Part shown: in pieces, positions 36,968-41,319 of the stretch
How positions within the stretch are numbered: the stretch's first letter is position 1
Layout: each line of letters starts with the position of its first letter
From: Arthrobacter pullicola
GTDB taxonomy: Bacteria > Actinomycetota > Actinomycetes > Actinomycetales > Micrococcaceae
Direction: 5' to 3'
DNA length: 64,000 bases
Assembly: GCF_014836875.1 (NCBI RefSeq)
Contig: NZ_JACSQC010000003.1
Span: forward strand, 170,619-234,618
Position numbers and translations under genes: made by a program
Notes under the pieces: generated by a model
The model's database searches: none
Seen by the model: only the letters and a program-made list of their open reading frames with translations
What the model was told of the DNA's origin: nothing

Positions 36968-38494
36968 GTGTCAGACAGCAAGCAGCAGTACGTCATCGCG
37001 ATCGATCAGGGCACCACGAGCAGCCGGGCGATTGTCTTCGACCACACCGGCAGCATCGTCTCGTCCGGACAAAAAGAACATGAGCAGATCTTTCCCCGCG
37101 CCGGCTGGGTGGAGCACAACCCCGAAGAGATCTGGACCAATGTCCGCGAAGTCGTCGGAACCGCCCTCTCCAAGGCGAACCTCACCCGGCACGACATCGC
37201 CGCCGTGGGAATCACCAACCAGCGCGAAACCGCGGTGGTCTGGGACCGCTACACCGGCAAACCCGTCTACAATGCGATCGTCTGGCAGGACACCAGAACC
37301 CAGCCCATCGTGGATGAACTGGCCAAGGACGGCGGGATGGACCGGTTCAAGTCCAAAGTGGGCCTGCCGCTGGCAACCTACTTCTCCGGCACCAAGATCA
37401 AATGGATCCTCGATAATGTTGACGGTGCCCGGGAAAAGGCCGAAAAGGGCGAGCTGATGTTCGGGAACACGGACTCCTGGGTCGTCTGGAACCTCACCGG
37501 AGGGGTTGAGGGCGGGGTCCATATCACTGACGTCAGCAACGCCTCGCGGACCATGTTCATGGACCTGGACACGCTGCAGTGGGACGACTCGATCCTGGAG
37601 GTCTTCGGTGTTCCGAAGTCGATGCTCCCCGAGATCCGGTCCTCGTCCGAAGTCTACGGAGCGGTGCACGGTTCCCAGCTGCTCCGTGAAGTCCCGGTAG
37701 CGGGCATTCTGGGCGATCAGCAGGCCGCGACCTTTGGGCAGGCAGCCTTTGGGATCGGGGACGCAAAAAACACTTACGGCACCGGCAACTTCCTGATCTT
37801 CAATACCGGTGAAGAGAAGGTCATGTCGCAGAACGGCCTCCTCACCACGGTGGCCTACAAAATCGGGGACAGGCCTCAGGTCTATGCGCTCGAAGGGTCC
37901 ATCGCCGTCACCGGTTCATTGGTCCAGTGGCTGCGGGACAACCTCGGCATCATCAAGAGCGCCCCGGAAATCGAAAAGCTGGCCGAGGCGGTGGAGGATA
38001 ACGGCGGCGTGTACATCGTCCCCGCGTTCTCCGGCCTCTTCGCGCCGCACTGGCGCGCTGACGCCCGCGGTGTGATCGTCGGCCTGACCCGGTTCGTGAA
38101 CAAGAACCATATTGCCCGGGCCGCACTGGAAGCCACGGCCTTCCAGACCCGGGAAGTGCTCGACGCCGTCAATGCCGACTCCGGTGTTCCGCTCACCGAA
38201 CTGCGGGTCGACGGCGGCATGGTCGCCAACGACGCGCTGATGCAGTTCCAAGCTGACATCCTGGGCGTTGACGTTGTCCGCCCCGAGGTCGTGGAAACCA
38301 CGGCGCTCGGAGCTGCGTACGCCGCCGGCCTCGCCGTCGGCTTCTGGAATGACACCGCGGAACTCGCGTCAAACTGGAAGGAAGACAAGCGCTGGACCCC
38401 GCAGATGGAGCCGGCGGAGCGCGACCGCCAGATGCGGCTGTGGAACAAGGCCGTCACGCGCACCTTCGATTGGGTGGACGAAGACGTGCGTTAA
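36968..38494 (+). CDS. glpK: Glycerol kinase
   Basis: GlpK phosphorylates glycerol to glycerol 3-phosphate. The 508-residue FGGY-family protein has [15 protein letters not shown] at the N-terminus, [27 protein letters not shown] and the C-terminal [15 protein letters not shown] with [10 protein letters not shown]-like [20 protein letters not shown] precedes the GTG. Partner glpF is upstream; a long hairpin follows. glpD is not in the window. Confidence 0.97.
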
Positions 38495-38530
38495 GGTCCG
38501 GTTCCCTGTCCGGAGGGACATGCGCCAGGA

Positions 38531-38569
38531 CCGGGAATGCCGTTTTCCACCGGAAAACGGCATTCCCGG
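38531..38569 (+). terminator. 18-bp perfect hairpin after glpK
   Basis: CCGGGAATGCCGTTTTCC (38531-38548) pairs perfectly with GGAAAACGGCATTCCCGG (38552-38569), leaving a 3-nt ACC gap. It is 36 nt after the glpK stop. No U-tract follows, but the stem is by far long enough to act as an intrinsic-type terminator and to isolate the leuS leader. Confidence 0.75.
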
Positions 38570-38637
38570 TGTCTGCATGGGTCCGTAACCGGGCGCGCGG
38601 CACCTGTTCCGCTGCCGCCGTCGGGCACTGCCTGTTG

Positions 38638-38643
38638 TAAAGT
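38638..38643 (+). promoter_or_regulatory. -10 box of the leuS leader transcript
   Basis: TAAAGT is followed by exactly 6 nt (GGATAA) and then the ATG of the leader peptide, so the leader peptide message is probably leaderless. The -35 region is weak. Confidence 0.55.
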
Positions 38644-38649
38644 GGATAA

Positions 38650-38676
38650 ATGACCGCTTTGCTCCTCCTTAGATAG
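38650..38676 (+). CDS. Leucine-rich leader peptide of leuS (MTALLLLR)
   Basis: The 9-codon ORF ATG-ACC-GCT-TTG-CTC-CTC-CTT-AGA-TAG encodes MTALLLLR. Four consecutive codons specify leucine, the substrate of the enzyme encoded downstream. It is too short for ordinary gene finding. The stop codon abuts a 9-bp hairpin and lies 22 nt before an intrinsic terminator. This is the layout of ribosome-mediated transcription attenuators such as those of leucine and tryptophan operons: scarce Leu-tRNA should stall the ribosome on the Leu run. Existence of the ORF is seen; its role is inferred. Confidence 0.75.
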   Translation: MTALLLLR

Positions 38677-38727
38677 CCGCGTTGATGCACAACGCGGCAG
38701 CCCCTTGCATTTGACGAGGGGCTTTTG
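38676..38727 (+). promoter_or_regulatory. leuS attenuator: competing hairpins and terminator
   Basis: Three structures can be drawn. Hairpin 1 is a perfect 9-bp stem (GCCGCGTTG 38676-38684 / CAACGCGGC 38690-38698). The terminator is AGCCCCT 38699-38705 / AGGGGCT 38717-38723, followed by TTTG. The alternative stem pairs 38680-38689 with 38706-38716 (10 pairs, two of them G-U, one bulged T). The alternative stem cannot coexist with hairpin 1 or the terminator. A ribosome stalled on the Leu codons would cover about up to 38680, block hairpin 1 and leave the alternative stem free. No T-box sequence is present. Confidence 0.65.
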
Positions 38728-38820
38728 TGTGTCTGGGAAGAGTTAACAGCGCAGGCGGAACCGGCGGCATGCCGGAGACCGCGGATCACCAGGATTCATT
38801 GAGGACAGAGGCGAAGCATA

Positions 38821-41319
38821 GTGAGCACGCAGTCACAGACTGACCAGTCGGAAGATGCCGTATACAGTTTCGCGGCCATGGAGCAGAAGTGGCCGGCCGT
38901 CTGGGACGATCTTGGCGTCTTCACGCCCGCCGACGACGGAAGCCGTGAACGCCGCTACGTCCTGGACATGTTCCCGTACCCCTCGGGTGACCTGCACATG
39001 GGCCATGCTGAAGCATTCGCCATGGGCGACGTTGTTGCCCGCTACTGGCGCCAGCTCGGCTTCGACGTGCTGCACCCAATCGGCTGGGACTCCTTCGGCC
39101 TGCCCGCTGAAAACGCGGCCATCAAGCACAACGCCCACCCCAGCGAGTGGACGTACCGCAACATCGATACCCAGGCTGAGTCCTTCAAGCGCTACGCGAT
39201 CAGCGTGGACTGGTCCCGGCGCCTGCACACCTCGGATCCCGGCTACTACCGGTGGACGCAGTGGCTGTTCACCCGCTTCTACGAGCGTGGACTGGCCTAC
39301 CGGAAAAACTCCCCGGTCAACTGGTGCCCCAAGGACCAGACCGTGCTGGCCAACGAGCAGGTTGTCAACGGCGCCTGTGAACGCTGCGGCACCCAGGTCA
39401 CCAAGAAGTCGCTGAACCAGTGGTACTTCAAGATCACCGACTACGCCGACCGGCTCCTGGATGACATGGAACAGCTCAAGGGCTACTGGCCGGAGCGTGT
39501 TCTGGCTATGCAGAAGAACTGGATCGGCCGCTCCGAAGGCGCCCACGTCCGCTTCAATATCGAAGCCGCCGGCGGCAAGCCCGAAGAGCAGGTCACCGTC
39601 TTCACCACACGTCCGGACACCCTGTACGGAGCAACCTTCTTCGTGGTCGCTGCCGACGCGCCGCTGGCACTGGACCTGGTGACCGAAGAGCACCGTGAGG
39701 CCCTGCTGGAATACCGCGAGCAGGTCAAGGCCCTCTCCGACATCGAACGCCAGGCCACCGACCGCACGAAGACCGGTGTCTTTACCGGCCGCTATGCAGT
39801 CAACCCGCTCAACGGCGAAAAGCTGCCGGTCTGGGCCGCCGACTACGTGCTGGCCGACTACGGCACCGGCGCCATCATGGCCGTCCCGGCACATGACCAG
39901 CGAGACCTGGACTTCGCCAAGGCCTTCGGCCTGCCCGTGCGTGCCGTCCTCGACACCGGCGAAGAAGACCCCGCCGTCTCCGGCACCGCCACCACCGGCG
40001 AGGGAACCCTGGTGAACTCCGGCAGCCTGGACGGGCTGCCGAAGGCGGAGGCTATTCCCGCTGCCATCCGCGTGCTGGAGGAGAAGGGCACCGGCGAGAA
40101 GTTCGTGAACTTCCGGCTGCGGGACTGGCTGCTCTCCCGGCAGCGCTTCTGGGGAACCCCCATCCCGATCATCCACTGCGAAAAGTGCGGCGAGGTTCCG
40201 GTTCCGGATGACCAGCTGCCGGTGACCCTGCCGGACAACCTGAAGGGCGAGGCACTGGCGCCCAAGGGCACCTCTCCGCTGGCTTCGGTTGAGGAATGGG
40301 TCAACGTCCCGTGCCCGTCCTGCGATGGTCCGGCCAAGCGGGACACGGACACCATGGACACGTTCGTGGACTCCTCCTGGTACTTCATGCGCTTCGTTTC
40401 CCCGCACTACACCGAGGGTCCCTTCGATCCCGAAGCCGTGCGGAACTGGATGCCGGTGGGGCAGTACGTGGGCGGTGTGGAGCACGCCATTCTGCACCTG
40501 CTTTACTCCCGGTTCTTCACCAAGGTGGTCAAGGACATGGGCCTCATTGAGGCCGACGAGCCGTTCAGCGCCCTGCTGAACCAGGGCCAGGTGCTCAACG
40601 GCGGCAAGGCCATGTCCAAGTCGCTGGGCAACGGTGTGGACCTGGGCCAGCAGCTGGATAAATACGGTGTCGACGCCGTGCGCCTCACCATGATCTTCGC
40701 GTCTCCGCCGGAGGACGACGTCGACTGGGCGGATGTTTCGCCGTCGGGCTCCGCCAAGTTCCTGGCCCGCGCCTGGCGCCTGGGCCAGGACATCACCAGC
40801 GAGCCCGGAGCCGATGTCGCCGCGGGTGATAAAAAGCTGCGCGCGGTTACGCACCGCACGGTCGCGGACGCCGCCGATCTGCTGGATGCCGGCAAGTTCA
40901 ACGTCGTCATTGCCAAGCTGATGGAACTGGTCAATGCCACCCGCAAGACCATCGATTCCGGTGCCGGCGCAGCCGACCCGGCCGTCCGCGAGGCTGCTGA
41001 AGCCGTGGCCGTGATCCTGAGCCTCTTCGCGCCGTACACGGCGGAAGACCTCTGGAACGCGCTGGGCCACCCGGCCTCCGTGGCGAACGCCGGCTGGCCG
41101 GCAGTCGACCCGGAGCTGCTCGTACAGGACAGAGTGACTGCCATCGTCCAGGTCAAGGGCAAGGTCCGCGACCGGCTCGAGGTTCCGGCCGACATCACCG
41201 AGGATGCCCTGCGCGAACTGGCACTTTCCTCGGAGCAGATCATCAAGGTCCTCGACGGAGCCGGGATCCGCACGGTGATCGTCAAGGCACCCAAGCTCGT
41301 GAACATCGTGCCGGCCTAG
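38821..41319 (+). CDS. leuS: Leucyl-tRNA synthetase
   Basis: LeuRS charges tRNA-Leu and hydrolyses mischarged products. The 832-residue class Ia protein has the HIGH-type motif HMGH at 59-62 ([12 protein letters not shown]), the CP1 editing domain ([13 protein letters not shown] and [15 protein letters not shown]), the zinc-binding CEKCG region, and the KMSKS-type AMSKSLGNG at about 597-604. The C-terminal anticodon-binding and tail domains end LVNIVPA. Length is normal. It is preceded by a leucine attenuator and a 94-nt leader beyond the terminator. Confidence 0.97.

Follow-up and report, generated by a model that had tools for sequence, protein, structure and literature searches.

A short leucine-rich leader gene with a flush hairpin and terminator as a probable ribosome-controlled attenuator of leuS in Arthrobacter and its relatives

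The DNA upstream of leuS in Arthrobacter pullicola raises two related questions: (i) whether a leucine-rich leader peptide gene and the RNA hairpins behind it regulate transcription of leucyl-tRNA synthetase in response to leucine; and (ii) if so, whether the decision is made by competing RNA stems. A reading of the sequence alone (the sequence-only reading) had answered yes to both. The window analysed here, a stretch of 64,000 nt, contains the ORF, -10 box, hairpin, terminator and alternative pairing at exactly the positions given in that reading.

The features of the leader and leuS itself lie on the forward strand. The -10 hexamer TAAAGT (38638..38643) ends exactly 6 nt 5′ of an ATG, which predicts a leaderless start, and no promoter with a -35 element rose above the scan threshold at the leader. 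The ORF (38650..38676; ATG ACC GCT TTG CTC CTC CTT AGA TAG) encodes MTALLLLR in eight codons followed by TAG; its four Leu codons TTG CTC CTC CTT occupy 38659..38670, and the last of them, CTT, is the most conserved and the probable sensor codon. Hairpin 1 (38676..38698), with 9 bp formed by 38676-38684 and 38690-38698, opens on the last base of the stop codon, which is the sixth nucleotide past the last Leu codon. A single base separates it from the stem of an intrinsic terminator (38699..38732), in which 38700-38707 pairs with 38715-38722; with an additional A38699-U38723 pair the stem extends over 38699-38723. The stem is followed by UUUGUGUGU, within the U-rich tail UUUUGUGUGU, and this is the sole terminator-like site in the scanned interval 38490-38900. 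The presumed regulated gene, leuS (38821..41319, GTG start), matches TIGR00396 leuS_bact with 972.8 bits against a cut-off of 548.4, and the six nearest named LeuS N-termini, among the best 80 of 585 confirmed loci, are those of Arthrobacter (92-96% identity). The upstream neighbour is glpK (36968-38494). Behind it, at 38530-38570, is an inverted repeat with 19-bp arms, a 3-nt loop and no T run; it is probably the glpK terminator, and would insulate leuS from transcription of the glycerol gene.

Compared with dinucleotide shuffles, the 86-nt leader has a fold 4.9 sd lower in energy. Identity with a T-box or another Rfam family was rejected, because the sequences searched gave no match, whether the window at the gathering score or the leaders of loci L227, L171, L208 and L204 at E up to 1. 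No convincing second copy of the leader was found elsewhere in the genome, where there is one further 20-nt match (E 1.1).

The leader ORF is conserved as a protein. Mini-ORFs were sought as 6-10 codons with at least three consecutive Leu, at most 600 nt from leuS, with no promoter required. Such a Leu-triplet ORF precedes 67 of 80 named leuS loci, nearly all of them from Micrococcaceae and the best 80 of 585 confirmed. In all 67 a TANNNT hexamer stands 6-7 nt before the start (6 nt in 60, 7 nt in 7), compared with 85 of 1440 ATG or GTG triplets of the same DNA, a background in which the leaders are included. A leaderless-type Leu leader in front of leuS, as first read from the single sequence, is supported by its relatives. 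Twelve loci were missed by the first scan; 11 have an ORF without a Leu triplet (e.g. MTALLNLR, MHNFLPLS or, longer, MSALELSQPR), and the remaining one, Glutamicibacter L080, has MYSQFHLL.

Length and Leu positions are equally regular in 118 distinct family leaders, chosen for at least two Leu and a -10-like motif. Exactly eight residues are encoded in 109 of them, and in these scan-picked leaders Leu occupies codon 7 in 109/109, codon 5 in 104 and codon 6 in 99; a variant found by eye, L249 (MSAVLRPS), has another residue at codon 7. Three Leu, at codons 5-7, are the rule. The four consecutive Leu of the original reading are indeed present in the window, but are peculiar to it and some relatives, and in other relatives the Leu codons are down to one or two. 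CTT serves as the last Leu codon of 103 of the 118 leaders and CTA of 10, although CTT accounts for 6 and CTA for 1 of the 163 Leu codons across four window genes. At codons 5 and 6 synonymous Leu codons vary while the amino acids are kept, which, together with the mostly rare last codon, is the pattern expected of a leader that is translated and whose decisive codon is rare and probably slow. The comparison shows selection on the leader. We also observed that at L025 (Pseudarthrobacter sp. GA104) and L259 a sense codon stands in place of the TAG at the hairpin base, which extends the peptide (to MRAILLLSQPPGIRTNG and MRAILLLSQPPSVRTNG, respectively, each followed by a stop), and that at L098, L099 and L100, all of one genus, the leader is cut to MAYFLG and a stop, with no hairpin 1.

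In relatives hairpin 1 keeps the same ends and varies in length. Among 106 family leaders (105 parsed; L060 misparsed), 102 place the first base of hairpin 1 at the end of the stop codon and 103 leave 1-3 nt between it and the terminator, and its span is mostly 19 to 62 nt. It is missing at four loci, L080 and L098-L100, where leader and terminator are kept. Across these relatives hairpin 1 covaries. In 53 distinct family arm pairs, pairs 5-8 are paired more often than in any of 500 shuffles; because partners were taken from predicted folds, the count of paired positions is biased in that direction, while changes of pair type are not. For example, four distinct arm pairs have TAA as their stop codon, whose final A faces U, not C (G-C to A-U), and at pair 5 C-G gives way to U-A. 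The two hairpins have 99.5% of their cells paired in 12 congeners, and their covariation score is 0.182, compared with 0.064 in shuffles, none of the 500 reaching it; three pairs changed on both sides, a number not above shuffles (254/500 reach it). The terminator stem is invariant in these 12 sequences and therefore gives no information on covariation. Comparison supports both hairpins of the sequence-only reading. A separate observation concerns the tail, which is TTTTGTGTGT in 90 of the 106 family leaders and is unusually conserved past the first four U (38723-38732); by eye, tails ending CATGTC or GTGTGTC recur in other families.

The element is widespread. The family sample comprised 149 genomes, with upstream DNA examined for 109, of which 60 were chosen among the most divergent. 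The leader or a variant is present in 60 of the 109, 52 found by scan and eight by reading (L098-L100, L134, L249, L255, L260 and L266). It was not seen in the other 49, part of these negatives resting on the scan only and some contigs ending too near; the more divergent genera of the family mostly lack it. Outside the family, 70 leuS loci were sampled at the level of order and class (L177-L246), and 40 of them have a leader. In these, LL(L)-x-x-P-R is the usual reading of the ORF, followed by a stop that is most often UGA, and the 5′ arm, mostly GCCGCG, lies as far beyond the last Leu codon as it does in the window. For example, seven genomes of one genus (L227-L233) encode MRAVRLLLSEPR in six cases and MRAVRLLLSGPR, with an SGPR end, in one, and all have GCCGCG at this place and a flush terminator. 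The window's form corresponds to the longer form with a TAG stop before P-R. The same truncation, with TAG at the hairpin base, was noticed outside Micrococcaceae at L208, L242 and L245 (families f45, f17 and f11), three of the 40, which suggests either repeated truncation or an old form. Two types of LeuS occur in the order and class samples, most with ~62-79% identity to the query and others longer, with ~38-50%, and the leader precedes both (e.g. L204 and L227). Locus L012, labelled Sporosarcina beigongshangi, a name from another phylum, has an Arthrobacter-like leuS (89% identity) with the leader, and is probably from a mislabelled or contaminated assembly.

The spacing of the parts is constant. 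It was tabulated for 158 distinct leaders (118 from the family and 40 from the class level), selected by promoter and Leu criteria. Left out were L069 (masked), L080, L155, L156, L246 and L265 (hairpins but no clear ORF), identical leaders, the eight variants found by eye, and L105 (contig edge), which was replaced by L247. Hairpin 1 starts on the sixth nucleotide after the last Leu codon in 137/158 and on the 4th to 8th in 157/158, and the linker to the terminator is 0-3 nt in all 158, while hairpin 1 itself spans 18-69 nt, except in three misparsed leaders (L112-L114, with a hairpin of 13 nt in this count and 59 nt in other parses). With hairpin 1 folded, the free RNA between the last Leu codon and the terminator is 3-9 nt in 157/158. 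With hairpin 1 opened, the distance from stop to terminator is at least 20 nt in 146, or in 149 with L112-L114 correctly parsed; it is 20-26 nt in 56 leaders, 16-19 nt in seven, and 9 and 10 nt in L025 and L259, which have lost the stop at the hairpin base.

Taken whole, the region is probably a leucine-responsive, ribosome-controlled transcription attenuator of leuS, and the following sequence of events may be proposed. We infer that the 5′ end of the transcript is the A of the leader ATG, in which case a ribosome must load on a bare 5′ end. With ample Leu-tRNA, the ribosome would pass the Leu codons, reach the stop, open the base of hairpin 1 and be released; hairpin 1, now unfolded, would then act as a spacer, placing the terminator 22-23 nt from the stop in the window and allowing it to fold and transcription to end. 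With scarce Leu-tRNA, the ribosome would stall on the Leu codons, above all on the rare last one. A ribosome unwinds mRNA to ~11 nt after the first base of its P site, so that with the last Leu codon in the A site unwinding would reach the base before hairpin 1. Since hairpin 1 starts at the sixth nucleotide and would stay folded, only ~6 nt of free RNA would lead to the terminator; a ribosome stalled this close would keep the terminator from closing, and leuS would be transcribed. Opening of hairpin 1 would restore ~20 nt or more of slack.

The distances are comparable with those described for E. coli in PMC4824070, where termination fell from ~90% to <10% once a stop codon had been shifted to a site 5 bp before the terminator, removing translation abolished the repression of the terminator by the ribosome, and repression was gone beyond 27 nt, the authors inferring a need for 10-15 nt of free mRNA. 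It is from the constant geometry, these repression distances and the reach of ribosomal unwinding that we propose that hairpin 1 sets the distance between stalled ribosome and terminator. The limits of 10-15 and 27 nt are E. coli values, and the 56 leaders mentioned above have only 20-26 nt between stop and terminator, and seven more only 16-19 nt; moreover, adjacent hairpins have been proposed elsewhere to cause termination (PMC8355165), which counts against this step. The four loci that lack hairpin 1, and the two that lost the stop at its base, are further points against it. We offer the blocking of the terminator through the proximity of a Leu-stalled ribosome as a tentative model, one that could well be wrong. 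That it holds as a class-wide design, in which no antiterminator is used and hairpin 1 serves as a distance switch, is a yet more doubtful extension.

Two other readings share much of this evidence. In one, hairpin 1 is itself the antiterminator: folded flush against the terminator, it would block closure of the terminator base inside the RNA exit channel, and a ribosome would not be required. The geometry on which this relies is identical to that of the proximity model, including the linker of 0-3 nt in 158/158 leaders, and the basal pairs are G+C-rich. However, such a mechanism would predict full read-through when the leader is not translated; loci L080 and L098-L100, without hairpin 1, still have leader and terminator; and clusters of hairpins are reported in PMC8355165 as causing termination. 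We consider it unlikely that hairpin 1 acts alone.

In the other reading, hairpin 1 is mainly a pause hairpin that would hold RNA polymerase until a ribosome has loaded on the bare 5′ end, the read-through step being something else. Hairpin-stabilised pauses have a characteristic spacing, and a TG at that spacing, 10-12 nt past hairpin 1, is present, as raw counts, in 81 of the 118 family and 28 of the 40 class-level leaders, which is no more than suggestive. The TG is nevertheless not universal and is frequent also at 8-9 nt, and pausing alone does not settle termination. A role confined to pausing thus seems rather improbable, and the proximity model is retained as the preferred account of the read-through step.

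The classical alternative is the three-stem switch put forward in the sequence-only reading: a ribosome stalled at the Leu codons hides the 5′ arm of hairpin 1, so that 38680-38689 is free to pair with 38706-38716, which excludes the terminator. The stem can form in the window, with 10 pairs and one bulged U, and the duplex between hairpin 1 and terminator is stronger there (locus L081; -12.7 kcal/mol) than the shuffle mean (-10.5 kcal/mol). In Corynebacterium, moreover, the antiterminator proposed for ilvB-II joins the loop of the first stem to the 3′ side of the terminator (PMC10272879). The pairing is not conserved among relatives, however. In the 12 congeners 53.1% of its cells are paired, compared with 50.3% in shuffles (7/500 reach the observed value) and 16-46% with slid partners, and for seven of the ten pairs, 7 or more of the 12 sequences have a gap or do not pair. 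At 53% pairing against 99.5% for the hairpins, the alternative stem was rejected as a conserved antiterminator. Alignment with relatives thus bore out the Leu run and the covariation of hairpin 1 but not the third stem.

Nor does a replacement emerge when the positions are allowed to differ between leaders. Hairpin 1 and terminator form, on average, weaker duplexes than they do in shuffles that preserve hairpin 1, with a mean z of +0.36 in the 118 family leaders, where no excess is seen, and +0.71 in the 40 class-level leaders. In partial transcripts with varied ribosome masking, upstream pairing of the terminator 5′ arm was below the null in five of six settings and reached 0.096, with a null of 0.081, in the remaining one (158 leaders, or three fewer for one setting); an earlier run on 87 leaders was also at or below shuffles. 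Masking at equilibrium was rejected as an explanation, the terminator winning in nearly all 87 leaders with a mean P of at least 0.98. When the naked 86-nt leader is folded to minimum energy, the two hairpins give way to pairing of the Leu run with the 3′ arm of the terminator; as a switch this pairing was likewise rejected, occurring in only 6 of the 118 family and 1 of the 40 class-level leaders with a mean probability close to or below controls. By eye we noted that, once freed, the 3′ arm of hairpin 1 might lengthen the terminator through wobble pairs with the GUGUGU tail; both sides hardly vary. Adjoining arms cannot pair with each other, as a linker of 0-3 nt is too short to form a loop. 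In these comparisons no replacement antiterminator clearly exceeds shuffles, and the weak results for alternative stem, duplexes and kinetics indicate that the textbook switch is not what selection keeps. The leaders have the other parts of a three-stem attenuator, namely an ORF of regulated codons conserved as a protein and an intrinsic terminator before the gene, but no conserved antiterminator that excludes the terminator: the window's two such pairings, which may act locally, are both unconserved. As the general mechanism the three-stem switch is therefore very unlikely.

A constitutive tandem terminator, giving a fixed low level of leuS with a leader that no longer senses leucine, would suit the relatives with one or two Leu codons and the hairpin clusters reported as terminators (PMC8355165), but there is little to recommend it when codon 7 is Leu in 109/109, the rare codon is kept and the eight-residue length and spacing are mostly kept.

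It is most likely, judging from the genomes compared, that the tiny leucine-rich peptide gene and the transcription stop signal act together as a leucine sensor. Whatever the fate of the proximity step, the element can be taken as a candidate regulatory RNA for leuS, widespread and with no corresponding Rfam family in the sequences searched. If that step is true, amino-acid attenuation can operate with no competing RNA stems: the place at which a ribosome stalls, with a hairpin to set the distance, would suffice. This would provide a simple design rule for finding more attenuators, and might help to explain the Actinobacteria attenuators described in PMC1262725 as having missing components.

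The kind of element is already known, since leuS leaders of this type occur in Streptomyces. For S. coelicolor and S. avermitilis, attenuators of leuS were predicted in 2005 (PMC1262725); in 2021, RNA-seq of S. lividans revealed a leaderless leuL2 upstream of the same gene (PMC8079986). With these precedents, the sequence-only reading overstated its case in calling leader-peptide control of leuS less usual. The MRAVRLLLSEPR peptide of the six L227-L233 loci is the leaderless LeuL2 peptide of S. lividans as given in PMC8079986. The window has the traits of S. lividans leuL2-leuS, that is, the same gene directly downstream, the -10 spacing of a leaderless start, a Leu run containing the triplet, a hairpin and an intrinsic terminator. 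It differs from the Streptomyces form in that the ORF stops at the hairpin base (TAG versus GAG, GGG, CAG or similar) and does not run through the 5′ arm to a later stop. A further difference is that an antiterminator is named for Streptomyces in PMC1262725, and no conserved one was found in the present leaders, in which the textbook attenuator switch is not conserved. A literature search of an open library returned no paper on an Arthrobacter leuS leader peptide or on attenuator leader peptides of Micrococcaceae, and it is possible that Arthrobacter leuS was previously listed in Lopatovskaya 2010 on such operons.

Leaders with related properties are found elsewhere in the phylum. Canestrari 2020 is said to treat polycysteine leaderless short ORFs of mycobacteria as attenuators; these share with the window a leaderless short ORF with a run of a single residue, but belong to cysteine operons. 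According to PMC1262725, the mycobacterial cysteine operons have no conserved terminator hairpin, and the LEU element of leuA is a pseudoknot in which a Leu run is paired to the Shine-Dalgarno box. An ilvB1 attenuator has been described in M. tuberculosis (PMC13236596) and a leaderless ilvB leader in C. diphtheriae (PMC5784534); other related literature is PMC8269248 and PMC4833913.

In the classical attenuators of E. coli, trp, his and leu, a leader ORF rich in the regulated codon is followed by a nearby hairpin and an intrinsic terminator. The window shares with them the leader ORF, the hairpin near its end and the terminator; unlike them, its type conserves no pairing incompatible with the terminator, and its hairpin 1 lies flush against the terminator. 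Finally, we note a parallel with pyrBI-type attenuators, in which the signal is slow transcription. There, a close ribosome represses the terminator directly, with no antiterminator, as discussed in PMC4824070. We suggest that in the leuS leaders the corresponding signal could be a ribosome stalled at Leu codons together with a folded spacer hairpin.
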